DNA of 64,000 nucleotides from the NCBI RefSeq assembly GCF_900240995.1, contig NZ_LT965955.1, forward strand, positions 124,001-188,000, written 5' to 3'. Position numbers and translations under genes: made by a program. Position 1 is the stretch's first letter. Each line of letters opens with the position of its first letter. Of the stretch, positions 30,884-63,968 are shown piece by piece. The notes under the pieces are model-generated. The model made no database searches. It had not been told where the DNA came from and worked only from the letters and a program-made list of their open reading frames with translations. Source of the stretch: Bacillus sp. Marseille-P3661 (GTDB taxonomy: Bacteria; Bacillota; Bacilli; Bacillales; Bacillaceae_J).

Positions 30884-31696
30884 TTATTCCATATTTTCTA
30901 GCATATTTTCAATAATTGATGACGAGTTGTTTACAGCCATTTGTTTGAAATCTTCCCATTTCATAACAGCTTCTTCACCAGCATCATCTGAAGCGGAGCG
31001 GATTACAAGATATGGAATCTCGTTTAAATGAGCTACTTGTCCAACTGCGCCGCCTTCCATTTCAACTACGTAAGCATTGAATGTATTAAGAATCCATTCA
31101 CTTTTTTCAGCACTTGCGATAAATTGATCACCTGTTGCGATTCTTCCTTTAAAAACATTTGTACCTTCTGGTAAATTCTTAGCTGCTTCTTCTGCTAGAG
31201 CAATCAGCTCTTCATCAGCATTAAAGTAGCCAATGTCCATTCGAGGAATAATGCCAGGCTCGTAACCTTTGGCCGTTTCATCCATGTCATGTTGAACTGT
31301 ATCAGTTGAAATAACGATATCTCCGAGGTTTACGTCAGGATGAATAGCACCAGCAATCCCTGAATTAATAAGTTTGTCTACATTAAAATGACTAACTAAA
31401 AGTTGTGCAGCCATCGTAGCGTTTACTTTACCAATCCCAGATTGAACAAGGACGATATTCTGTCCTTTTAATGTACCTTTATAAAATGTCATTCCGGCGA
31501 TATCCTCTGTTTCTTCTACTTCCATATGAGAATGTAGAATTTCAATTTCTTCTGCCATAGGACCGATAATTCCAACTATATTAGCATCTTTCGGTTCAGG
31601 GGGTGCATTTTCTACACCTTGTTGTGAGCATCCGATTAGTAAACTACCGCATAATAAAATCAAGAGCAGATGTTTAGTGTTTTTCAAAATGTTCAT
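30884..31696 (-). CDS. MTA/SAH nucleosidase exported as a lipoprotein
   Basis: A 270-residue protein of the 5'-methylthioadenosine/S-adenosylhomocysteine nucleosidase family, which releases adenine from MTA and SAH. Family landmarks are VGIIGPMAEEIE at the start of the domain, SGIGKVNA, NSGIAGAI, the VVEMEGGAVGQVA substrate loop and RSASDDAG with the catalytic aspartate. It carries a lipoprotein signal peptide with lipobox LLIGC (cysteine about 23), so it should be anchored outside the cell, unlike the usual cytosolic enzyme. A paired PurR box covers its promoter region. It lies near polyamine genes, whose aminopropyl reactions make MTA. Confidence 0.88.
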   Translation of the reverse strand: MNILKNTKHLLLILLCGSLLIGCSQQGVENAPPEPKDANIVGIIGPMAEEIEILHSHMEVEETEDIAGMTFYKGTLKGQNIVLVQSGIGKVNATMAAQLLVSHFNVDKLINSGIAGAIHPDVNLGDIVISTDTVQHDMDETAKGYEPGIIPRMDIGYFNADEELIALAEEAAKNLPEGTNVFKGRIATGDQFIASAEKSEWILNTFNAYVVEMEGGAVGQVAHLNEIPYLVIRSASDDAGEEAVMKWEDFKQMAVNNSSSIIENMLENME

Positions 31697-31966: not shown

Positions 31967-33466
31967 TTATATATCTTTTGAATAGCGAGGATGAGTTTCT
32001 GACTGTATGCTCTTAAAAAAGGACATCCCCATTAGAATAATGACAATGGCAAAAGGCAGCGCTGCTATGATCAGCATATTTTGTAAGCCTTGTGTTCCAC
32101 CAAAGTAAACGACAATTGCTGCTATCGTTGATTGAATCAACCCCCATGTAATTTTCACCGAATTACCAGGATTTAAAAGACCGTTTGTACTTAACATCCC
32201 TAGTACGAATGTGGCCGAATCTGCAGAAGTAATAAAGAAAATTGCAATGACGATAATCGTCAACATTGACATTAACGTTCCTAGGGGATACTCAGTCAGT
32301 ACCCCGAATGTGGATGTCTCTAATGTAAATTTTGAAATAGTTTGGATCCCAAGCTGTTCCAATCGTAATGCAGAAACCCCGAAGACCGCGAAAAATATGA
32401 AACATACCAATGATGGTAAGAGTAGAACACCAAATAGGAACTCTTTTACTGTTCGTCCTTTTGAAATTCTGGCAATGAAAATTCCAACGAATGGTGCCCA
32501 AGAGATCCACCATGCCCAGTAAAAAATCGTCCAATTATTGATCCAAGTTCGATTTTCTTCATTTAAGGGAGCAAGCCTTAAACTCATTTCGAAGAAGTCA
32601 GAGATATAGCTGCCAAGCGTGTGTGTAAACATATTAAGGATATACATTGATGGACCCATAAGGAACAGAAGAATTAGTAGCAGTATGGCTAATGCCATAT
32701 TCATATTACTTAAGTATTTGATTCCTCGTCCAACCCCGGACCATGCTGACCAGATGAACAAGATGGTTGCAATAGCGAGAACAATTAATTGGGTAGTAAA
32801 ACTATTTGGGATGGCAAACAAAAAGGATAGTCCGCCAGTAATTTGTGCGGAACCAAAACCGAGTGTTGCAGCTACACCTACTATAGTCGCGAATACGGCT
32901 AACACATCAATCCATTTTCCGAATGCCCCTCTCATGCGTTTCTCACCAAATATAGGCGTGAGCGTTGCACTAATTAGACCAGGAGCTCCGCGATTAAATT
33001 TGAAGTAGGCTAGTACTAATCCGACAATTCCGTAGACTGCCCAGGCATGTATACCCCAGTGAAAAAATGAATACTTAAGTGCTTCTTTTATAGCCGTATT
33101 GGATCCTTCTTCATTTAATGGACTGTTGACAAATGCATGTGATATCGGTTCAGCAGTTGTCCAGAAGACTAATCCCATCCCCATACCAGCACTAAATAGC
33201 ATTGCAAACCAAGAAGGCCTGCTAAATTCGGGCTCGTCATCCTTCTTTCCTAGTTTCAAATTACCGAAACGAGAGAACATCAAGTAAACACAGAAAAGAA
33301 GAATGGCGATAACAACTAATAAATAAAACCAACCAAAATCATTTAAGATTCGACTCGTTAAGTTTGCTGTCAACGAGTTTAAATTTTTTGGAGCAATGGC
33401 TCCCCATATGACAACTATTAATGAAATAGCTGTAGCATACCAAAATACTTTTGTTGTTTTTTTCAT
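31967..33466 (-). CDS. BCCT-family betaine/choline/carnitine transporter
   Basis: A 499-residue, twelve-helix secondary transporter. It has the glycine-rich SAGMGMGLVFWTTAEP segment and the aromatic substrate box WAWWISWAPFVGIFIARISKGRTV typical of BCCT carriers such as OpuD and BetL. The GMGMG version favours betaine-type rather than choline substrates in some members, but specificity cannot be settled here. The C-terminal regulatory tail is short. AAGAGGTGAAG precedes the ATG. Confidence 0.9.
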   Translation of the reverse strand: MKKTTKVFWYATAISLIVVIWGAIAPKNLNSLTANLTSRILNDFGWFYLLVVIAILLFCVYLMFSRFGNLKLGKKDDEPEFSRPSWFAMLFSAGMGMGLVFWTTAEPISHAFVNSPLNEEGSNTAIKEALKYSFFHWGIHAWAVYGIVGLVLAYFKFNRGAPGLISATLTPIFGEKRMRGAFGKWIDVLAVFATIVGVAATLGFGSAQITGGLSFLFAIPNSFTTQLIVLAIATILFIWSAWSGVGRGIKYLSNMNMALAILLLILLFLMGPSMYILNMFTHTLGSYISDFFEMSLRLAPLNEENRTWINNWTIFYWAWWISWAPFVGIFIARISKGRTVKEFLFGVLLLPSLVCFIFFAVFGVSALRLEQLGIQTISKFTLETSTFGVLTEYPLGTLMSMLTIIVIAIFFITSADSATFVLGMLSTNGLLNPGNSVKITWGLIQSTIAAIVVYFGGTQGLQNMLIIAALPFAIVIILMGMSFFKSIQSETHPRYSKDI

Positions 33467-33737: not shown

Positions 33738-34865
33738 TTACGAAAGTCTCATCTTAAAGTCTTGATAGCTAAATTGACGTACAACATTACAATCGCCATC
33801 TTTCTTTTTCACAGCAATAGCTGGTAATGACATACCGTTGAAGGTTGTGTTTTTGACCATTGTGTAAATTGCCATATCACCGAATACTAAGCGATCGCCA
33901 CTCTTTAATGGTTGATCAAAAGAGTAGTCACCAATTACATCACCAGTAAGGCAAGTTTGCCCGCCAAGACGGTAAGAGTATGATTTTTCGCCGACTTCAC
34001 CTGATCCAAATAGAGGAGGACGATACGGCATTTCTAACACATCGGGCATATGGCATGATGCTGATGTGTCAAGAATAGCAATCTCCATTCCGTTTTGAAT
34101 CGTATCAAGAACTGTTGTAACTAGATAACCTGCATTAAGCGCTACGGCTTCACCTGGCTCAAGATAAACTTCCAAACCATACTTATCTTGCATTTTCTTA
34201 ATACATGCTTCTAATCGTGGAATATCATAATCTTCTCTTGTTATATGATGGCCACCACCGAAGTTAATCCACTTCATTTGAGGTAGCCACTCGCCAAATT
34301 TTTCTTCTACTGCATTAAGAGTTGTTTCTAAATCGTCTGAGTTCTGCTGACAAAGTGTGTGGAAGTGTAATCCATCAACACCATCAAGTAAATCAGGACG
34401 AAAGTATTCTCTTATAACACCAAATCTTGAACCTGGCGTACATGGATCATAGATTGCATGCCCAATTTGAGTCGAGCATTCTGGGTTAATACGCAAGCCG
34501 ACACTTCTGCCAGCTGCAAGTGCTTTATCTTTAAACTTTTCTAATTGCGAAAAGGAATTAAAAATAATATGATCGCATATTGAAATGATTTCATCTATTT
34601 CATCTTCACGATAGGCAGGGGAAAAGACATGATTTTCTTTCCCCATTTCTTCATACCCTAGGCGGGCTTCGAGTAAGCCGCTCGCTGTCGTACCACTTAA
34701 ATACTCTCCAATGAGAGGATACATTGAATACATTGAAAATGCTTTTTGAGCTAAAACAATCTTACATCCTGTACGTTTCATTACCCCGTTTAGGATCTTT
34801 AAATTTTTTTCCAGAAGACCTTCATCGACTACATAACATGGTGTTGGTAATTCTTCAAACCGCAT
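33738..34865 (-). CDS. nspC: Carboxynorspermidine/carboxyspermidine decarboxylase
   Basis: A 375-residue fold-type III PLP decarboxylase that converts carboxynorspermidine or carboxyspermidine to norspermidine or spermidine. The opening ELPTPCYVVDE and the cofactor lysine K41 in LAQKAFS are characteristic. HFHTLCQQ, NFGGGHH, LEPGEAV and the active-site DTSASCHMPDVLEMPYRP complete the site. The start lies one base after the stop of the partner dehydrogenase, so the genes form a tight operon. Together they replace the decarboxylated-SAM route with one using aspartate semialdehyde. Confidence 0.93.
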   Translation of the reverse strand: MRFEELPTPCYVVDEGLLEKNLKILNGVMKRTGCKIVLAQKAFSMYSMYPLIGEYLSGTTASGLLEARLGYEEMGKENHVFSPAYREDEIDEIISICDHIIFNSFSQLEKFKDKALAAGRSVGLRINPECSTQIGHAIYDPCTPGSRFGVIREYFRPDLLDGVDGLHFHTLCQQNSDDLETTLNAVEEKFGEWLPQMKWINFGGGHHITREDYDIPRLEACIKKMQDKYGLEVYLEPGEAVALNAGYLVTTVLDTIQNGMEIAILDTSASCHMPDVLEMPYRPPLFGSGEVGEKSYSYRLGGQTCLTGDVIGDYSFDQPLKSGDRLVFGDMAIYTMVKNTTFNGMSLPAIAVKKKDGDCNVVRQFSYQDFKMRLS

Positions 34866-34866
34866 C

Positions 34867-36105
34867 TTAATAAACGAGCTCCGGCTCTTTATCTTTTATA
34901 GGTTCTGAATCGACAAGCTCTGGATTAAAGTCTTCTTGCCATGGAAGTCCCCATTTGTTTAAAGCTTCCATGAATGGATCTGGATCAAATTCTTCGATAT
35001 TGTAAACGCCCGGTTTATTCCACTTACCAGTCAAGATCATAGCTGCACCAATCATTGCAGGTACACCTGTAGTATAAGAGATTGCTTGTGAGCCTACTTC
35101 TTTATAGCATTCTTGATGGTCACAAACATTATATACATAATAAGTTTTTTCTTTTCCATCTTTTTTACCTTTAAAGATACAACCGATATTTGTTTTCCCA
35201 ACTGTTCTTGGACCAAGGGAAGCTGGATCTGGTAGTACTGCTTTTAAGAATTGAAGCGGAATAATTTGCTTTCCTTCAAATTCAATTGGCTCGATTGAAG
35301 TCATTCCCACATTCTCTAGGCACTTTAAGTGTGTAAGGTAGCTTTGGCCAAATGTCATGAAGAAACGGATACGCTTAAGTCCTGGGATGTTTTGCGCAAG
35401 AGATTCAAGCTCTTCATGGTATAATAAATACATATCTTTCTCGCCAACTTCAGCGAAGTTATAAGTTCTTTTAATCTCCATTGGTTTAGTTTCGATCCAT
35501 TCACCATTTTCCCAATATCTTCCGTTAGCTGATACTTCACGAATATTGATTTCAGGATTGAAATTTGTTGCAAACGGATAACCATGGTCTCCGCCATTAC
35601 AATCAAGGATATCGATGTACTCGATTTCATCAAAATGATGTTTAAGTGCATAAGCAGAGAATACACCTGTTACGCCTGGGTCAAAGCCACTTCCTAAAAG
35701 AGCTGTAATTCCAGCTTGTTCAAAACGTTCGCGATATTCCCATTGCCATTTGTATTCGAACTTTGCTGTATCTTCTGGCTCGTAGTTTGCTGTATCCATA
35801 TAATGCGTTTTTGTTGCAAGGCAAGCATCCATGATTGTTAAATCTTGATACGGTAATGCTAAATTCATTACGATATCAGGCTTTACTTCCTCAATTAAAG
35901 CAATTAACTCATCTACATTGTTTGCATCGACTTGTGCAGTTGTAATTTTTGTCTTGCCACCATCTAATTTAGCTTTTAACTCATCACATTTAGATTTTGT
36001 ACGACTTGCGATACAAATCTCTTCAAATACTTCACTGTTTTGAACACATTTGTGAATAGCTACTGATGCTACTCCACCACAACCAATAATAAGTGCTTTT
36101 CCCAT
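34867..36105 (-). CDS. Carboxynorspermidine/carboxyspermidine dehydrogenase (synthase)
   Basis: A 412-residue saccharopine-dehydrogenase-like enzyme that reductively condenses a diamine (diaminopropane or putrescine) with aspartate beta-semialdehyde. The N-terminal Rossmann motif GCGGVA is at residues 9-14; GSGFDPGVT and the NFNPEINIREVSANGRYWE region follow as in CANSDH/CASDH. Generic annotation as saccharopine dehydrogenase would be misleading given the adjacent nspC. Whether the product is norspermidine or spermidine cannot be told from sequence. A structured leader RNA with a terminator precedes the gene. Confidence 0.9.
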   Translation of the reverse strand: MGKALIIGCGGVASVAIHKCVQNSEVFEEICIASRTKSKCDELKAKLDGGKTKITTAQVDANNVDELIALIEEVKPDIVMNLALPYQDLTIMDACLATKTHYMDTANYEPEDTAKFEYKWQWEYRERFEQAGITALLGSGFDPGVTGVFSAYALKHHFDEIEYIDILDCNGGDHGYPFATNFNPEINIREVSANGRYWENGEWIETKPMEIKRTYNFAEVGEKDMYLLYHEELESLAQNIPGLKRIRFFMTFGQSYLTHLKCLENVGMTSIEPIEFEGKQIIPLQFLKAVLPDPASLGPRTVGKTNIGCIFKGKKDGKEKTYYVYNVCDHQECYKEVGSQAISYTTGVPAMIGAAMILTGKWNKPGVYNIEEFDPDPFMEALNKWGLPWQEDFNPELVDSEPIKDKEPELVY

Positions 36106-36229
36106 TTTCTAGTCTCCTCACTAAATAGATTTTCAAATAAAAGAGGTAGTCGATAACAACGAAACTAGTAAAACAACAATTCGTTGGGAAAAAGATCGTT
36201 ATCATAACCCCTCAATAATTTCTCAAAAC

Positions 36230-36665
36230 ACAAAAAGCAAGTGTGAAACGCATGACCGCGCACAACACTTGCTTTAGATATAATCATCAATATTAAAAAG
36301 ACATAAGTTAACTATGACAGAGTCATATGTAATCGTCTATCATAAAAGTTCAACAATATTATGATAGGAAGCTCTTTAATATTCAAAATATATCATAATA
36401 GGGATCAGAGTCTATATAGCAAATAATTTACTTTTACTACTCTTATTGACCGTTTCACAAGTTGTTGTGCTAACGCACTGGTTGTAAAGTAACCAACTTA
36501 TAAAATTTGAGCTTTTAACTCAATCAATAAGGCAACTAAAGTTGCCAATCGGCATTTGACCCGGCTGTCCGTATGGCCTTAACTTCGAATAGAAGTGGTC
36601 AAAATTATCTGCTTGGAAAGATCTGATGTATATATTGAATATTCGCTTTCCAATTAACGCTACTC
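36230..36665 (-). promoter_or_regulatory. Candidate riboswitch/attenuator leader of the carboxy(nor)spermidine operon
   Basis: Read on the minus strand, a promoter-like TTGATA-16-TAAGCT near 36690-36663 starts a leader of about 550 nt. It contains several helices. TTGGAAAG pairs with CTTTCCAA, and TTTGACC pairs with GGTCAAA around an inner ACTTC/GAAGT hairpin. GGCAAC/GTTGCC has a TTTA loop. Downstream, the segment at 36458-36470 (GCACAACAACTTG) can pair with one arm of the terminator at 36260-36271 (CAAGTGTTGTGC) with a one-base bulge. That would be a switch between anti-terminator and terminator. No riboswitch class I know matches. A T-box was considered and rejected. Confidence 0.6.
36234..36275 (-). 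terminator. Leader terminator upstream of the carboxy(nor)spermidine operon
   Basis: On the minus strand, AAAGCAAGTGT and ACACTTGCTTT form a perfect 11-base stem followed by TTGTGTTTT. It lies about 130 nt before the dehydrogenase start codon, not after a gene, which suggests attenuation. Confidence 0.8.
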
Positions 36666-36728
36666 TAGCTTAACACATTTCATTCAAATATCAAGAGGTA
36701 AATTAATAAAAATTTTATAAAAGATTTC

Positions 36729-36786
36729 TTGTTCGAACAAAAAAAGGAAATTAGCTTCGAATAGTATATATAATAGTATTTTCGAA
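36729..36786. promoter_or_regulatory. TTCGAA-containing inverted repeats and -10 element before the second ftsZ
   Basis: The palindrome TTGTTCGAACAA (36729-36740) and two further TTCGAA cores, near 36756 and 36783, surround a TATAAT at 36769-36774. The latter two are arranged as an inverted repeat around that -10. This looks like an operator for a dimeric repressor, but no known consensus fits. Confidence 0.45.
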
Positions 36787-36838
36787 TATTCCTTGAATTG
36801 TGTTAACATATGGTTTTTGATAGTTAGGAGGAATTATC

Positions 36839-37792
36839 ATGTATGAGTTTGATACAAATATAGATCAGTTCGCTAAAATTAAGGTTATTGGTGTTGGCGG
36901 TGGCGGTAATAATGCCGTAAATAGAATGATTGAAGCTGGAGTAGAGGGTGTAGAGTTTATTGCAGTTAATACAGATGGACAAGCTCTAAATCAATCAAAA
37001 GCAGAAACAACAATCCAAATAGGTGCCACGTTGACAAGGGGCTTAGGTGCAGGTGCAAATCCAGAAGTAGGTAGAAAAGCTGTAGAAGAAAGTAAACAGG
37101 ATATTGAAAGGGTTTTAGCAGGTGCTGATATGGTATTTGTTACAGCCGGAATGGGCGGTGGTACAGGAACAGGTGCAGCGCCGGCAATAGCTGATATTGC
37201 AAGAAGTTTAGGTTCTCTAACGATTGGGGTAGTGACGCGCCCGTTCAAATTCGAAGGTCCTAAGCGAGCTGCAAATGCGGAATTTGGAATTGAAGAAATG
37301 AGGGAAGCAGTAGATACGTTAATCATTATTCCAAATGAACGTTTATTGGAAATCGTAGATAAAAAAACGCCAATGATTGAAGCGTTTCGAGAAGCGGATA
37401 ATGTCCTGCTAAGGGGTGTCCAAGGTATATCAGATCTAATAGCAGTGCCAGGATTAATAAATCTTGATTTTGCGGATGTAAAAACAGTAATGTCACATAA
37501 AGGAACAGCCTTAATGGGAATTGGTATCGCTAAAGGTGCAGACCGTGCGATTGATGCTGCACAAAAAGCGATAAACAGTCCGTTGCTTGAAACATCTATT
37601 AGTGGGGCACGTGGTGTGATTATGAATATCACTGGTGGGCGTAATTTAAGTCTGTTTGAGGTGCAGGAAGCAGCTGACATTATTGCATCGACTACACATG
37701 AAGACTTAAATATGATCTTTGGTTCAGTTATTAATGAAAATTTGGATGAGGAAATCATTGTAACAGTAATAGCAACTGGATTTGCCAAGTAA
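36839..37792 (+). CDS. FtsZ paralogue lacking the C-terminal tail
   Basis: A 317-residue FtsZ-family GTPase. The tubulin signature [12 protein letters not shown], the nucleotide-binding [15 protein letters not shown] and NTDGQAL, and the T7 loop [14 protein letters not shown] with the catalytic aspartates are intact. Polymerisation and GTP hydrolysis should therefore be possible. It ends at VIATGFAK, exactly where the globular core of B. subtilis FtsZ ends. The flexible linker and the conserved C-terminal peptide (DIPTFLRNR in B. subtilis) that binds FtsA, SepF and ZapA are absent. It is not next to ftsA or the division cluster, so it is an extra copy. A terminator follows. GGAGGAATT precedes the ATG. 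Confidence 0.9.
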
Positions 37793-38193: not shown

Positions 38194-38264
38194 CTACTCC
38201 TATACCATTTAATGTAAGGTGGAAATACCTTTTGTATTTAGCTTAATTGGAAGGGATGATTAAT

Positions 38265-39437
38265 ATGAATAAAACAAGAATTGCAGCAATTGATGTAGGG
38301 AATGATTCTATAAAAGCAATTTTTGGAAAGTCTGCAGAGTATGAGCTTAATATACCCAATGTAATTGCAAGAGATACAGAAGATAGACCTGTAATTGGTA
38401 TAGAAGAATTGAATGATAAAGATCCTCTAGAAGGTATTCATATTAGAGTCCATTCTCCCGCATTGAAAGAAAATAATGCTATATATCGTGTAGGCAATTT
38501 GGCAACTAAAAGTGCCAATGCAACCGAATTAGATCAAGGAAGCAGCAAGTCTGAAGAAGATCAGACACTTATCATGCTCTTCGCTACTTTGGCATTAGAT
38601 GCTGCCAGAGAACAAAATGATGATACTTTCAAAAAGAAAGATAATGTTATCGACTGCTTGTATACACTTGGTACAGGACTCCCTCTCCGTGAGGTAAAAG
38701 AAGGTAAGGACGTTGGCTATCGTTCACGACTATTAAGCGCAGTCCACCAAGTTGAATTTTTAGTAACTCCTAAATATCAAGGACTAAAGGTCAATCTTAA
38801 ATTCGATCAAGTAAAAGTATATCCAGAGGGATTTGCGGCCTATATAAATCTAGTAATGGACAAAAATCTAAATATAATAAATAGGGATTTAGTAGATAAA
38901 CGGATTTTAATTCAAGATATTGGTGGATTATCAACTGACATTGCTGTTATAAAAAATAGAAATGTAGACGATGACAAGGCACAGGGCTTTAATATTGGTG
39001 TATCTGAATCATTGGAGGCTATAAGAGAAGAAGTTAGAACGAAACATAGTGTGGAATTGGATAGTCGCAGAGACGTAGTTGAAATTATAACAAAAAAACA
39101 AGATCGGAATCACATTATGGTTAAGGGTAGTCGAACTAGTATACATGATATTACTGATAGAATTCTATTCGAATTGGCAAAGAAACAATATCGCCTTTTA
39201 CGTAATATTTGGCAAAAAAACTCCCAAACAGAAATTTGCTATTTTGTTGGTGGGGGTTCAATTGTTTTAAAGGATTATCTAAAAGCAATTAATAATAGCT
39301 TAGATGGTTATAATATTGGGTTCTTTGAGGATGAAAAAGAAAGTATTTGGATGATGGCGAATGCTTATCATAAATTAATTTCAGACTTTGTAAGGAAATC
39401 CAATCTAGGAAAAGAGAAACAGACTGCAGAGAAGTAA
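38265..39437 (+). CDS. ParM/Alp-type actin-like DNA segregation ATPase
   Basis: A 390-residue actin-family protein. The phosphate-1 motif AAIDVGNDSIKAIFG, the phosphate-2 motif IQDIGGLSTDIAV and the adenosine motif CYFVGGGSIVLKDYL occur in actin order. It resembles plasmid ParM/Alp filaments of Bacillus rather than MreB or FtsA. ATG 38265 lies nine bases after GGAAGGG; upstream in-frame starts lack spacing. It is followed by an RHH protein and preceded by phased repeats, which together make a complete type II partition cassette. Confidence 0.87.
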   Translation: MNKTRIAAIDVGNDSIKAIFGKSAEYELNIPNVIARDTEDRPVIGIEELNDKDPLEGIHIRVHSPALKENNAIYRVGNLATKSANATELDQGSSKSEEDQTLIMLFATLALDAAREQNDDTFKKKDNVIDCLYTLGTGLPLREVKEGKDVGYRSRLLSAVHQVEFLVTPKYQGLKVNLKFDQVKVYPEGFAAYINLVMDKNLNIINRDLVDKRILIQDIGGLSTDIAVIKNRNVDDDKAQGFNIGVSESLEAIREEVRTKHSVELDSRRDVVEIITKKQDRNHIMVKGSRTSIHDITDRILFELAKKQYRLLRNIWQKNSQTEICYFVGGGSIVLKDYLKAINNSLDGYNIGFFEDEKESIWMMANAYHKLISDFVRKSNLGKEKQTAEK

Positions 39438-39448
39438 GGGTGATTTTC

Positions 39449-40078
39449 ATGACAGACAAGGAAATGAATAGAATACAGAGGGGACAGGCAATTACCTTTC
39501 GGCTCCCTTCTGATACACCTGACCACATCATTAAGAGGTTACAAAAGTTAAAGAAATCGGAGCGTAGAAACTTTTCTAGTAAAATTGCAGAGTTTGTTTT
39601 GCAGGGTGTAGGCAACTCCCTATCTCAAGAAAGAGAAACAATCAACATTCCTCTTCCTAAGCCTTTGAGTAATGAACAACGGAATTGGCTGAAACATTCA
39701 CATTCCGAAGCTCTTTTAGGAAGTCTTGTTTATCAATTATTGATAGACCCAATTCGTGCCACTTCGGTATTGGCCTCTCTAAATAGCGGTGCATTGGACA
39801 TAGATGAAGCACTATATTTACAAGAGGAAGAACCATTTGCATCAAATGAATCATATGTTGAGAAAGAACTTTATCCAAGTTTAGATAGAAAGATAGAGGA
39901 GTCTAAAGAATATCCAGTATCAAATCATTTAGAACATGGTGAAGATGACTTGATGAATTTTGACTTGGATAGTGTAAGACAAGAATTGGCGTCCCCTTCG
40001 GAAAAAGACCAAGGAGTAGTAGAAGTGGAAAGTGCTGAAGATTTACTTGGTGACTTCTTAGCAAAAATGAACAGTTAA
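39449..40078 (+). CDS. ParR-like ribbon-helix-helix adaptor of the ParM cassette
   Basis: A 209-residue protein starting 11 nt after the ParM stop. The N-terminal region (ITFRLPSDTPDHIIKRLQKLKKSERRNFSSKIAEFV) looks like a ribbon-helix-helix DNA-binding fold. A long acidic middle and a short amphipathic C-terminus (EDLLGDFLAKMNS) follow, as in ParR, where the tail captures ParM filament ends. Identification rests on layout and position because ParR proteins diverge quickly. Confidence 0.75.
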   Translation: MTDKEMNRIQRGQAITFRLPSDTPDHIIKRLQKLKKSERRNFSSKIAEFVLQGVGNSLSQERETINIPLPKPLSNEQRNWLKHSHSEALLGSLVYQLLIDPIRATSVLASLNSGALDIDEALYLQEEEPFASNESYVEKELYPSLDRKIEESKEYPVSNHLEHGEDDLMNFDLDSVRQELASPSEKDQGVVEVESAEDLLGDFLAKMNS

Positions 40079-40334: not shown

Positions 40335-40841
40335 ATGAGCTTTCTTAAACGGCTTTTTGGTCAAAAAGAAGAGGTTCGGGAGGTAAAGGAACGAACTGTT
40401 CTTTCGATTGAAGTGGGGGATATCGTTGTTTATGACCTTGAGGATTATCAAGTAGTTGGCAAGTTAACTTATCATGATCATGGATTTGAATGGATAGCTT
40501 ATCAGCTAAACAGCCCTAATAAAACAGTTTGGTTAAGTGCTGAAATGGATGATGAGTTGTACGTAGGTATATATGAAAAAATCACATTAAAACTTCATGA
40601 GCCTTTACCAAAGGAGGTTACATATGACAACACCAAATATTACCTTGATGAGTCAGGGATAGCAACGGTTACTGGTGAAGGCAGAGGTCGTAACGTCAAT
40701 AATATGAAATGTAAGTATTTTGATTATTGTGATGACGAGAGAGAACATTTTTTGTCTGTTGAAATATGGGGTTCGGAAGTTGAAGTTAGCTATGGATATG
40801 AAATTGAGGAATTTGAAATTAAGATTATTGCAGGCCAATAA
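40335..40841 (+). CDS. DUF4178 family protein
   Basis: A 168-residue soluble protein with the beta-rich pattern of DUF4178 (VEVGDIVVYDLEDYQVVGKLTYHDHGFEWIAYQL). Its N-terminus MSFLKRLFG resembles the amphipathic start of the adjacent PspA. In many Bacilli DUF4178, PspA, DUF4247, DUF350 and a membrane-linked aminopropyltransferase form one operon, as here. Role unknown; probably a partner in membrane-stress response. It ends 18 nt before pspA. Confidence 0.8.
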   Translation: MSFLKRLFGQKEEVREVKERTVLSIEVGDIVVYDLEDYQVVGKLTYHDHGFEWIAYQLNSPNKTVWLSAEMDDELYVGIYEKITLKLHEPLPKEVTYDNTKYYLDESGIATVTGEGRGRNVNNMKCKYFDYCDDEREHFLSVEIWGSEVEVSYGYEIEEFEIKIIAGQ

Positions 40842-40859
40842 TCTACAGGAGGATGAGTT

Positions 40860-41531
40860 ATGTTTTCATTTTTTAAACGTGTAAAAACTGTAGTTGAGTC
40901 TGAGTTAAATGCAATGCTAGATAAGGCGGAAGATCCAATAAAGATGCTCGATCAATTTATGCGCGAAATGGAAGCGGATATCCGTGATGCTGAAACAGCA
41001 GTAGCGAAGCAAATTGCGAACGAAAAAATGCTACAAAAAAAGTATGAAGATGCTGAAAGAATGGTCGAAAAACGTGAAAGTCAGGCAATTAAAGCATTAG
41101 AATCTGGTAATGAGGATCTTGCTAGAAGAGCTTTAGAGGATAAAAAAATACATCAATCCACTGCAAACTCACTTAAAGAATCATATACAAGAGCGAAACA
41201 AGATGCAGATACTTTAAGAGTCAAATTGGATGAAATGAAAAGTGAATATAATGAAATGAAATTGAAGAAGGATGCTTTAAAAGCAAGAGCAGAATCTGCT
41301 AAAACAAGAACAAAAATGAATCGTGCTATGTCGAGCATAGGTGGGGATGAGGGAAGAAGAGGTTTTGAGCGTATGAAGGAGAAAGTTTTGCGCTATGAAG
41401 CCGAAGCAGAAACGAGTGACGAGCAGCGGTTTTCAAGTCGCAGCTTAGATGATGAACTAGAAGCGCTAGATAAAGGTAATGGCGTAGATGATGAGCTAGC
41501 AGCATTGAAAAAAAAGCTTGGTAAGGAATAA
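40860..41531 (+). CDS. PspA/IM30 family membrane-stress protein
   Basis: A 223-residue, almost fully helical protein with the N-terminal amphipathic helix MFSFFKRVKTVVESELNAMLDKAEDP that binds lipids, followed by long coiled coils. PspA/IM30/Vipp1 proteins are ESCRT-III-like and polymerise on damaged membranes. A GGAGG site precedes the ATG. It is the second gene of the five-gene operon. Confidence 0.92.
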   Translation: MFSFFKRVKTVVESELNAMLDKAEDPIKMLDQFMREMEADIRDAETAVAKQIANEKMLQKKYEDAERMVEKRESQAIKALESGNEDLARRALEDKKIHQSTANSLKESYTRAKQDADTLRVKLDEMKSEYNEMKLKKDALKARAESAKTRTKMNRAMSSIGGDEGRRGFERMKEKVLRYEAEAETSDEQRFSSRSLDDELEALDKGNGVDDELAALKKKLGKE

Positions 41532-41648
41532 TCATTTATAGACACCATATGAATAGTTGGGAGATATGATGCATCCCCAAAATTGAAGGGATGTTTACCA
41601 CCTGAGCAATTTTAGCTCGCTAAGTTGGAATAGAAAGCGGGGGAATCT

Positions 41649-42245
41649 ATGAAAAAGCCACTTCTTGCCCTCATTCTCACTTTCACATTATTATTGGCTG
41701 CATGCTCATCAGAGAATGGTGGGTTATTTAAAGAAGGCATTGTTGAATTTATCAGCAATGAATATACGATTTATGATACAGTGTCTAGTGCAACAGATTC
41801 TGCAAATTTTTCAGAAATATATATAGCAGAAAATCAAACAGTTGATGCGGTTGCAGCAAACATAATTTCCCATCAACAGCCAATTGAAATGAGTGAGATG
41901 AAGGAAGGAAAGCAGGTACTTATATATGAAAATCTTTTCGTCATTTTAACAGCGGATGATGAGAATCAAGGAAATACCTATATTGAGGTAGCAAACAATC
42001 AGTTTATAAGGGATAACTATAGTTATGATTTTTTTGACGGTTTATTTCTGGCCTGGGTATTAGATGATGTATTGGATGTTGATGATTGGGGTAAAAAGCG
42101 GCAAATGAAATGTAAGCAGTATCCTGAAAATTGTTACGATGGCTATGGCCACTCGGGAGGCAGTTTTAAAGGGCTTAATAAAACACCAACGATCCGTAAT
42201 GGAAGTTCATCTGTACGTGGCGGTGGGCCTGGTGCTGGGAAATAG
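41649..42245 (+). CDS. DUF4247 family lipoprotein
   Basis: A 198-residue protein with a lipoprotein signal (LLLAAC lipobox, cysteine about 19), so anchored on the outer face of the membrane. The mature part matches DUF4247 in length and in a cysteine pair (MKCKQYPENC). The C-terminus is glycine/serine rich (GSSSVRGGGPGAGK). It lies in the PspA operon and is likely an extracytoplasmic component. AGCGGGGGAA precedes the ATG. Confidence 0.78.
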   Translation: MKKPLLALILTFTLLLAACSSENGGLFKEGIVEFISNEYTIYDTVSSATDSANFSEIYIAENQTVDAVAANIISHQQPIEMSEMKEGKQVLIYENLFVILTADDENQGNTYIEVANNQFIRDNYSYDFFDGLFLAWVLDDVLDVDDWGKKRQMKCKQYPENCYDGYGHSGGSFKGLNKTPTIRNGSSSVRGGGPGAGK

Positions 42246-42262
42246 GAGAAGGAGGCGGTATT

Positions 42263-42658
42263 ATGCAAGCAATTTTATTAACAGTAATGTATTTTGTTCT
42301 GGCTATTATCATTGTAATTATCGGTTTAACTATTTTTGAAGTACTGACAAGGCAATATAAGGATTGGGATGAAATCCGCAATGGAAACAAGGCGGTTGCT
42401 CTTTCAATTACAGGAAAAATTATTGGTATATGTATTGTCCTAGCTTTTTCTATCTATCATAGCTCACAGTTAACCGATACATTAATATGGGGTGCAATCG
42501 GTGTGGTTCTTCAATTGGCAGCCTATTTGTTATTTGAGTTATTTACCAGGAAATTTTCTGTTGAGGAAGAGTTAAAAAAAGAAAACGTTTCTGTTGGGAT
42601 TATAAGTTTAGGAGTTTCAATTGGCTTAGCGCTAGTTATCGGGGCATCAATTACGTAA
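42263..42658 (+). CDS. DUF350 family membrane protein
   Basis: A 131-residue protein with four hydrophobic segments, the size and pattern of DUF350. The conserved polar pair sits in the segment after NKAVALSITGK. DUF350 proteins recur beside PspA and spermidine-synthase-like genes. AGGAGGCGG precedes the ATG, and the next gene starts 26 nt after its stop. Confidence 0.8.
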   Translation: MQAILLTVMYFVLAIIIVIIGLTIFEVLTRQYKDWDEIRNGNKAVALSITGKIIGICIVLAFSIYHSSQLTDTLIWGAIGVVLQLAAYLLFELFTRKFSVEEELKKENVSVGIISLGVSIGLALVIGASIT

Positions 42659-42684
42659 AAAACTCCCTAGAAGGGACTTGAAAT

Positions 42685-44232
42685 ATGAAAGATAGTCTTA
42701 AACAAACCAATGCAATTTACTGGTCTTCAGGGATAGTATCTATTTGTGGCATCATATATGAGGTGTTATTTGGAGCAGCGGGCTCTTATATTTTGGGAGA
42801 TGGGATTAAGCAATATACGTTGACCATTTCCCTTTTTCTTACGGGTATGGGGGTTGGTGCATACATAAGTGAAAAGGTAACGCGACATTTAATTATTTAT
42901 TTTGTGTGGATAGAATTTCTAATAGCGATAATTGGCGGTTTTTCCACTTTCCTTCTTTTTGGTATAACAGCCTTTTTAAGTGATGGTACGGATGCATTTT
43001 TCCTATATTTTATAACAGTTGTAGTTGGGACCTTGACCGGTGTTGAATTGCCGATCCTAATTCGTAAAGCTAATGAGATTGGAGAAACACTAAATAGAAG
43101 TGCTGCAAGAGTTCTTCTTTCCGATTATGCAGGCGGGTTAATAGGCGGATTATTATTTTTATATTTACTTCGCCCACAATTAGGATTGGTAAAAACCGCA
43201 TTTGTTGTGGCTTTTATAAATGCTTGTGTGGCACTTTGGCTACTGTATTATTTTAAAAAGGATATTAAGAGAGTGAAAATGCATGGGTTTGCAGGTATTT
43301 TCATTATCATACTTCTGCTAGGTGGGATTTTTTTTGGTGAGGAAACAGCTTTTACATTTGAGCAAAAGTTGTATCGTGACCCAATTATCTATAATCAGCA
43401 AACGCCTTATCAACAGATTATTTTAACTAAAGAGCAAGGTGATTTAAGGCTGTTTTTAGATGGACAGCTTCAATTTAGTTCAGCAGATGAATACCGTTAT
43501 CATGAGACACTAGTACATCCAGCAATGGCTCTTAGTGGGAATAAACAAAGTGTATTAATCTTAGGTGGTGGTGATGGTTTAGCAGTACGGGAGTTACTAA
43601 AATATGATGCTATTGAATCCATCACACTTGTTGATCTTGATCCTAAGGTTGTTGAGCTAGCAAAAACACATCATGATCTTGTGCAGCTTAATCAACATTC
43701 ACTTAAAGATGTAAGAGTCAAAGTTGTTCACCAAGATGCATTTAAGTTTCTAGAAAAGACATCCGATTATTATGGTGTAATATTGGTCGATTTACCGGAC
43801 CCCAATAATGAATCATTAAATAAACTGTATACGCAAGAGTTTTATCAATTAATTCGTAATCATTTACTTCCTGGAGGAAGTGTTATGATTCAAGCAACAA
43901 GTCCAACCTTTGCAACGGAAGTATATTGGGGAATCAATAAAACGGTTCAGGCGGCTGGGCTAGAAACTGCTAATTTACATGTTGATATTCCTAGCTTTGG
44001 AGATTGGGGATTCGTAATAGCAAAACGCGAACAAATATCTTGGGATGGCATTACAATTCCAGTAGATACACAGTTTTTAACGACAGAGGTTCTACATGGG
44101 TTACGATCGTTTGGTAAAGATATTGACGAAAATATCGTTAATAATCAAGGGGAAAAGATTCAAATTGAGGTAAATACTTTATTAGATCCTATATTACTTC
44201 AAAAGTATTTAGAAGCATGGCGGTACTATTAG
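42685..44232 (+). CDS. Membrane-bound aminopropyltransferase (spermidine-synthase-like)
   Basis: A 515-residue protein. The first 215 residues form about seven membrane helices. The C-terminal half is a spermidine-synthase domain: DGQLQFSSADEYRYHETLVHP, the SAM-type loop ILGGGDGLAVRELL and catalytic VILVDLPDPNNE. Such fused enzymes sit in PspA/DUF350 operons. The acceptor amine is unknown, and a membrane-linked substrate is possible. If it transfers aminopropyl groups it would release MTA, the substrate of the secreted nucleosidase at 31 kb. Confidence 0.85.
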   Translation: MKDSLKQTNAIYWSSGIVSICGIIYEVLFGAAGSYILGDGIKQYTLTISLFLTGMGVGAYISEKVTRHLIIYFVWIEFLIAIIGGFSTFLLFGITAFLSDGTDAFFLYFITVVVGTLTGVELPILIRKANEIGETLNRSAARVLLSDYAGGLIGGLLFLYLLRPQLGLVKTAFVVAFINACVALWLLYYFKKDIKRVKMHGFAGIFIIILLLGGIFFGEETAFTFEQKLYRDPIIYNQQTPYQQIILTKEQGDLRLFLDGQLQFSSADEYRYHETLVHPAMALSGNKQSVLILGGGDGLAVRELLKYDAIESITLVDLDPKVVELAKTHHDLVQLNQHSLKDVRVKVVHQDAFKFLEKTSDYYGVILVDLPDPNNESLNKLYTQEFYQLIRNHLLPGGSVMIQATSPTFATEVYWGINKTVQAAGLETANLHVDIPSFGDWGFVIAKREQISWDGITIPVDTQFLTTEVLHGLRSFGKDIDENIVNNQGEKIQIEVNTLLDPILLQKYLEAWRYY

Positions 44233-58976: not shown

Positions 58977-59003
58977 AAAGTCAATTAAATACTGGTACCT
59001 TTA

Positions 59004-59030
59004 ATTCAGTCCCGTGAGGCTGACAAGGAC
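59004..59030 (+). promoter_or_regulatory. PyrR-binding RNA element in the cytosine permease leader
   Basis: CAGTCCCGTGAGGCTGACAAGG closely fits the PyrR anti-antiterminator consensus (AGTCC-N-GAGAGGCT-AAGG). A GTATGATA/TATCATAC stem with an inner AAGTATA/TATACTT hairpin follows at 59039-59090, then the terminator. The order of the three elements is that of Bacillus pyr attenuators. Confidence 0.85.
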
Positions 59031-59095
59031 AGCGGAAAGTATGATAGCACTAGGTGAAGTATAGCTTTGTATACTTATTGTTTATCATACATTAA

Positions 59096-59138
59096 ACAGG
59101 CTACTTGTCGGAAAACGGCAAGTAGCCTGTTTTTTTTC
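59096..59138 (+). terminator. PyrR-controlled leader terminator
   Basis: ACAGGCTACTTG and CAAGTAGCCTGT form a strong stem with a short loop, followed by eight T residues. It lies about 70 nt before the permease start. PyrR bound with UMP should favour its formation. Confidence 0.9.
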
Positions 59139-63520: not shown

Positions 63521-63909
63521 AAATATGGTTGTTTTGTAGGAACCTAAGCTAGTACCATTTTATTATATACTGAATATTCCAAATTATGAAACGTGTTGCT
63601 TAGTAATTGCAAAATTTTATAAAAATATCTGAAACTATTTTTATTTACTAAACTAGAGCTCCAAGAAGAGGGGGCTGGAAAGGGAGTATAAGAGCTATTT
63701 GGAGATGGAGCCTTTATTCGTGTTTTTAAAGTATTTATTGATAACTATTCATTTAACGGCGTAGCAGATAACACAGAATACGAACAATACTTATTGACAA
63801 AAAAATAATATGCGCTTAGTATTAATAACGGAGTTTTTAAGTTTATACATGTTACAGTTGATTCGTATATTCTCGGTGATATGGTCTGAGAGTTTCTACT
63901 AGGAGCCGT
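63521..63909. other. About 390 bp with no recognisable gene
   Basis: Upstream sequence of the minus-strand dehydrogenase followed by non-coding DNA. A frame of about 38 codons ending at TAA 63806-63808 looks codon-like but has no start, and could be the remnant of a lost gene. Confidence 0.4.
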
Positions 63910-63968
63910 AAATTCCTAACTACGAATGGGGGCACAAGTCTACCCATTTTTAGTTAGGGATTTTTTTA
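63910..63968 (+). terminator. Terminator near the window end
   Basis: AAATTCCTAACTA and TAGTTAGGGATTT pair around an inner AATGGG/CCCATT helix, followed by seven T residues. There is no intact gene immediately before it, so it belongs to a short transcript or to a decayed gene. Confidence 0.75.

Follow-up and report, generated by a model that had tools for sequence, protein, structure and literature searches.

The leader and its surroundings

The window analysed here is the whole stretch of 64,000 nt from Bacillus sp. Marseille-P3661 (assembly GCF_900240995.1, contig NZ_LT965955.1, positions 124,001 to 188,000), and its minus strand carries two polyamine genes, CASDH and nspC, behind a 461-nt leader. 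The question raised by this locus is whether the leader regulates the operon and, if so, in response to which signal. A sequence-only reading of the window had proposed a riboswitch-like leader that attenuates transcription. That proposal is supported here by covarying helices, by a terminator and antiterminator that co-evolve and by a near-exclusive association with polyamine genes. Judged from sequence, the leader would be, with a probability of roughly 0.7, a cis-acting, ligand-responsive transcription attenuator (riboswitch) that senses a polyamine, turns its genes OFF and belongs to a class present in Rfam only as a fragment.

The first gene of the operon, CASDH, matched NF043000 with 419 bits (E 2e-125), which is under that model's strict cut-off of 800, and also had Pfam matches (PF03435/PF16653). 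Since speD and speE are also encoded elsewhere in the host genome, the CASDH-nspC operon is not the sole spermidine route of this host. Downstream of nspC lies a BCCT betaine transporter (31967-33466), and after it an MTA/SAH nucleosidase (30884-31696, minus strand) with a lipoprotein signal peptide (MNILKNTKHLLLILLCGSLLIGCSQQ), which suggests that this enzyme, usually found in the cytoplasm, may here be exported. Divergent from the leader, the plus strand encodes a 317-aa FtsZ paralogue (36839-37792; TIGR00065, 436 bits) that has the globular domain without the C-terminal tail, followed by an Alp7A/ParM-like actin (38247-39437; PF22128) and a small unassigned protein (39440-40078). The pairing of FtsZ paralogue and actin is arranged like a plasmid-type segregation or filament module, yet the contig is chromosomal. 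A polyamine-flavoured cluster of the envelope-stress type lies a few kb from the leader (40335-44232, plus strand) and comprises a DUF4178 protein, a PspA/LiaH-like protein, a lipoprotein, a small membrane protein and a 515-aa membrane-anchored protein with a spermidine-synthase domain. Ordinary Rfam matches on the plus strand were obtained for a PyrR binding site (58994-59134, 61 bits) and a purine riboswitch (63843-63942, 76.4 bits).

The predicted folding energy of the leader is -120.4 kcal/mol, whereas its shuffled versions average -95.0 kcal/mol (z -4.5), and none of 100 shuffles was equally good. The multi-helix region that had been noted at 36480-36640 is real and larger in extent, with a conserved core at 36405-36617 and a closing helix that reaches 36651 and 36367 (Table 1). 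This outer helix is present in the MFE structure of the window leader. Among 114 non-redundant loci its own pairing averaged -21.1 kcal/mol, compared with -16.6 kcal/mol for swapped partners (p 4e-13). The promoter-like hexamers fared less evenly: in the window they are not above chance (6 vs 4.5 in shuffles), whereas promoters are enriched upstream of homologous leaders, where matches of at least 10/12 were found for 41 % against 6 % of shuffles, mostly 30-60 nt upstream of P1.

Table 1. Features of the leader and its operon, in window coordinates
Feature	Position	Strand	Remarks
Weak candidate promoter, TTGATA-16-TAAGCT, 8/12	36667..36694	-	Immediately upstream of conserved RNA; from sequence
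P0, 5' hairpin GGAAAGC...CUUUCC	36612..36651	-	5' arm and loop also complementary to distal 3' segment
Conserved structured domain, candidate aptamer, helices P1 to P9	36405..36617	-	Alignment and covariation
P1	36612-36604 with 36427-36419	-	Pseudoknot with P9; 7/9 pairs covary
RF02440 match, optional arm P2/P2a/P2b, invariant ACGGACA loop	36549..36601	-	72.8 bits
P3, hairpin GGCAAC/GUUGCC	36531..36546	-	6/6 pairs covary
P4, 36530-36524 with 36449-36443	36443..36530	-	Encloses P5-P8; nearly invariant
P6, switch helix, UUUUAUAAGUU (36505-36495) with AACUUGUGAAA (36463-36453)	36453..36505	-	Nearly invariant
Antiterminator segment GCACAACAACUUG, 3' strands of P8 and P6	36458..36470	-	Complementary to terminator 5' arm
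P9, GAGU/ACUC, 36442-36439 with 36411-36408	36408..36442	-	Invariant in 69/69
Distal 3' segment AUAUAUUUUGAAUAUUAA..GAGCUUCC	36367..36393	-	Pairs with 36651-36630; long-range outer helix closing the whole domain
Intrinsic terminator, 11-bp outer stem and inner stem, then U5	36232..36275	-	Hairpin -17.3 kcal/mol
CASDH, carboxy(nor)spermidine dehydrogenase/synthase, saccharopine dehydrogenase fold	34867..36105	-	First regulated gene; ATG at 36105
nspC, carboxy(nor)spermidine decarboxylase	33738..34865	-	Second gene of operon; TIGR01047 501 bits, cut-off 409

A conserved domain larger than RF02440

Rfam was scanned over 36106-36838 with 4227 families, both at gathering level and at E<=1, and RF02440 was the only match in the leader, covering the full 54-position model well above its gathering cut-off of 37.2 bits. 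Lysine, SAM, TPP, cobalamin, guanidine, ZTP, T-box and other Rfam leaders gave no match in this interval at E<=1, which agrees with the earlier statement that known riboswitch cores do not fit, and assignment to a known riboswitch class was rejected. The leader had also been called unassigned. This holds with respect to riboswitch classes but not for the arm covered by RF02440, which is filed as an sRNA (SpF59_sRNA, 'Streptococcus sRNA SpF59 (ldcC RNA)', 54 nt, type 'Gene; sRNA'). Its name traces the family to pneumococcal F59, an 82-nt small transcript between SP0915 and SP0916 (PMC3395615). SP0916 is the arginine (formerly lysine) decarboxylase of a polyamine operon, and its expression is raised in a delta-speE pneumococcus (PMC7990898); a rise on loss of spermidine synthase fits the spermidine feedback that would be expected. 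A search of the open literature for 'SpF59' or 'ldcC RNA' found no relevant paper, and no leader of this kind before polyamine or decarboxylase genes is mentioned in the structured-RNA discovery papers; two motifs in PMC8632094, odc1 and potE, concern other bacteria and other genes. The 'ldcC' in Rfam's label shows that someone had noticed the RNA earlier.

RF02440 was searched at four taxonomic levels and was present in 6 of 7 genomes from the family, 35 of 299 from the order, 31 of 398 from the class and 18 of 398 from the phylum, with one copy per genome. Conservation of the leaders extended well past the 54 nt held in Rfam. A pattern for the 3' core (CTTGTGAAACNRTCAATAAGAGT) detected at least 119 further loci in GTDB genomes, and the matches listed included Paenibacillus, Neobacillus, Heyndrickxia coagulans, Faecalibacterium prausnitzii, Roseburia inulinivorans, Blautia, Acetobacterium, Acidaminococcus and Phascolarctobacterium. 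The distribution of the RNA spans Bacilli, Clostridia and Negativicutes. The core pattern had no match in 2.9 million viral contigs, and a phage origin was rejected on this basis. Among the loci detected with the pattern, some have the core but no RF02440 arm at all, and Rfam detected no family in the leaders of 20 such armless loci. A core model was then built without the RF02440 arm. On the window it scored 166.8 bits (36406-36550, E 7.3e-29), the sole copy in the host genome, and in the 398-genome Bacillota sample it identified 24 genomes against 18 with RF02440, recovering all 18; in all six additional genomes the RNA lies upstream of LDC or SpeD-LDC. Because the core is present where RF02440 is absent, RF02440 represents an optional arm and not the core, and as an Rfam entry it is a truncated sRNA family that misses members. 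In eight loci from some Bacillaceae the loop CAUACGGACA of this arm is swapped for a shorter one, for example GGCAACGGUGUGCC, with the CGG and the P2b pairing retained.

The secondary structure was assessed on an alignment of 69 divergent sequences with 60 proposed pairs in 12 helices, over which 94.5 % of cells were paired. Double changes occurred at 32 pairs (225 cells), compared with 16.4 pairs (57.9 cells) in shuffles, and partners slid by 1-3 columns gave at most 74 double-changed cells. As a further control, an APC-corrected mutual-information scan of a separate alignment independently ranked columns of P1, P2, P2a, P3 and P7 high; its top column pairs fell mostly in proposed helices, some being due to chance or phylogeny. 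Covariation was good for P1, P2a, P2b, P3, P7 and P8. P4, P6, P9 and a loop contact, in which the CGG of the RF02440 arm is able to pair with the CCG of UGCCGA, are nearly invariant and thus beyond the reach of covariation testing. Structure prediction from the alignment, not given the proposed pairs, recovered most helices and lengthened P6 to 11 pairs (UUUUAUAAGUU/AACUUGUGAAA). As P9 crosses P1, the domain is a pseudoknot. Comparative alignment of leaders had been named as a check on the sequence-only reading, and the helices proved to be conserved in orthologues. Two much reduced copies upstream of speD (L213 and L215) retain P1, ACUUGUGAA..GGU.AAUAAGAGUAGUAAAAGU and UUUGCUAUAUAGACUCU and are without the 5' strand of P4 and the P5/P7 hairpins, which hints that the essential core may consist of the P1/P9 pseudoknot and an invariant linker, about 90 nt in all.

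The conserved P4-P6 stretch also contains a frame of nine codons (TTG ATT GAG TTA AAA GCT CAA ATT TTA TAA), and arrest peptides are known for other polyamine genes, so ribosome-mediated attenuation by a leader peptide or an arrest peptide was weighed as an explanation. It is very improbable: the frame appears to be a by-product of RNA conservation, P5 within it covaries as a helix, and P5 is deleted in five loci, L213 and L215 among them, in which the switch and the genes are retained.

Associated genes and the proposed terminator switch

The first downstream gene at 191 homologous loci encoded CASDH (85 loci), an Orn/Lys/Arg decarboxylase (55) or SpeD (37). The other 14 loci comprised six potABCD operons and one M28-type peptidase, both identified by reading the sequences with no family scan, and seven cut off by the end of the contig or locus. 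Polyamine synthesis or uptake genes followed on the same strand after 183 of 184 assessable leaders, which are not 183 independent events, many loci being related (those of Paenibacillus especially), though four unrelated gene families are represented. The lone exception, the peptidase locus, has a degenerate copy of the RNA. All 72 of the RF02440 loci that were fetched lie upstream of polyamine genes. In the order sample, the RNA was found in 34 of 46 genomes with nspC and in one of 253 without an nspC match (Fisher p 2e-33), and this sole discordant genome has CASDH downstream of the RNA, on a 16-kb contig that ends nearby. The gene association of the RNA is close to exclusive for polyamine synthesis and import. 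As a separate observation, two tandem Clostridiales-1 RNAs (RF01699) occur near a polyamine-leader locus in a Lachnospiraceae MAG (L094:3206-3555).

A terminator is present before the gene in 177 of 183 leaders; a first pass had counted 148 of 177, compared with 33 expected from shuffles. The typical terminator 5' arm, CAAGU/CACAAGC plus UGUGC, complements the 3' strands of P6 and P8. Complementarity between core and terminator arm was above that of shuffled arms at p<=0.05 in 151 of 177 homologous leaders, matched core and arm partners exceeded swapped ones (p 5e-17), and compensation is visible in two loci where a core GCUUG accompanies an arm CAAGC. This indicates that terminator and antiterminator are conserved and co-evolving.

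Such an arrangement is hard to reconcile with a trans-acting small RNA whose position before polyamine genes is incidental, as could be read from the 'Gene; sRNA' type in Rfam and from the short pneumococcal transcript (PMC3395615). At 183 of 184 loci the RNA is a same-strand leader of polyamine genes with a co-evolving terminator before the gene, and a prematurely terminated leader would likewise leave a short transcript; a stand-alone sRNA is hardly credible.

Both elements of the proposed switch had been described in the window and were confirmed exactly. The outer stem of the terminator is a perfect 11-bp helix, AAAGCAAGUGU/ACACUUGCUUU (36275-36265/36244-36234), that runs into U5; the ATG at 36105 lies about 130 nt further downstream. 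A standard terminator scan missed this terminator because of the scan's loop-length limit. The upstream segment at 36470-36458 (GCACAACAACUUG) forms 12 pairs with 36271-36260 (CAAGUGUUGUGC), with one bulged A, and RNAduplex gave -20.1 kcal/mol for a slightly larger antiterminator segment against the terminator arm. In the full window leader the state with P6 and the terminator is favoured by 17 kcal/mol, so that any switching has to be under kinetic control or driven by a ligand. As long as the 3' arm of the terminator has yet to be transcribed, only 3.8 kcal/mol separate the P6 state from the antiterminator state, and in these folding models such near-equal states would amount to a poised switch.

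P6 or the antiterminator might also be stabilised by a polyamine-sensing RNA-binding protein or a general factor. The leader is long, and protein-dependent attenuators have precedent in other Bacillota leaders, for example at the PyrR site in the window. The size of the domain, its pseudoknots and its invariant unpaired residues are, however, more like metabolite aptamers than protein sites, and no regulator gene was consistently adjacent within the locus neighbourhoods read, which makes a protein-dependent attenuator quite unlikely.

Candidate ligand and relation to known systems

In the mechanism proposed for a riboswitch, the pseudoknotted domain of about 210 nt (P1-P9), closed by the outer helix, would have as its ligand an end-product polyamine, most likely spermidine or a triamine close to it. 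Once this is bound, P6 would hold the strand AACUUGUGAAA, the terminator would form and transcription would stop before CASDH-nspC (OFF). When the ligand is absent, the 3' strands of P6 and P8 (GCACAACAACUUG) would pair with the terminator 5' arm as an antiterminator and the operon would be transcribed. Three parts of this mechanism are inferred: a polyamine as the signal, its direct binding to the RNA, and shut-off of the genes as the outcome.

CASDH and nspC form the spermidine route from aspartate semialdehyde, SpeD belongs to the route from SAM, the decarboxylases form diamines, and potABCD imports polyamines; SAM is unused by CASDH/nspC and aspartate semialdehyde is unused by SpeD. Because the regulated genes share only the polyamine theme, the economical choice of a ligand common to all would be a triamine end product, and gene content points to spermidine or a close triamine as what would most likely be bound. 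Of the ligands suggested earlier, a polyamine is therefore favoured, while an aspartate-semialdehyde-related compound is disfavoured, as are SAM and lysine, because the RNA also precedes speD, lysine/arginine decarboxylase genes and potABCD. Polyamines bind RNA non-specifically, which calls for caution over a selective pocket.

A riboswitch of the same architecture might instead read polyamine status indirectly, by sensing putrescine, agmatine, cadaverine, SAM/MTA, lysine or aspartate semialdehyde. Each of these metabolites adjoins some regulated enzyme, and a decarboxylase gene comes first in 55 loci. This is unlikely, as SAM and aspartate semialdehyde are each foreign to one of the regulated routes, potABCD uses no biosynthetic precursor and the polyamine product is the common denominator. 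With a triamine as ligand, it seems fairly probable that these leaders form a second class of polyamine (spermidine/triamine) riboswitch, one that is widespread and has no structural relation to the rare SAM-I variant, with an aptamer of about 210 nt that is pseudoknotted, has near-invariant core residues and controls both synthesis and uptake. The class would be the main feedback sensor in many Bacillota, among them Clostridia of the gut and lactic cocci. If so, a common dedicated RNA would explain how many Bacillota set their polyamine levels, and structural biologists would have a natural pocket for a small flexible polycation.

Salvail et al. (2023, PMC10853860) note that polyamine riboswitches had long been expected; the only one they found is a rare derivative of the SAM aptamer, a SAM-I variant whose consensus was drawn from 13 representatives. 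The spermidine riboswitch described there is likewise a termination OFF switch of Bacillota that precedes polyamine genes, including ldcC and speE (PMC10853860). It is built on the SAM-I four-way junction, whereas the leader RNA described here has the P1/P9 pseudoknot and another secondary structure, and is far commoner. The leader had no match to RF00162 or a related SAM family even at E<=1, and membership of the same family was rejected, the helices being different. By score the window is a member of RF02440, passing its gathering cut-off, but that family is a 54-nt Streptococcus sRNA gene and corresponds here to one optional arm of a cis-regulatory domain of about 210 nt. The lysine riboswitch and other large terminating riboswitches of Bacillota share with the leader the opposition of an aptamer helix and an antiterminator, with a terminator before the gene; they differ in helices, conserved residues and genes, and the leader has no Rfam match to them. 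Two features of a terminating OFF riboswitch in general are found in the leader, a conserved, covarying, aptamer-like domain in the 5' leader and a terminator with a mutually exclusive antiterminator that includes an aptamer strand.
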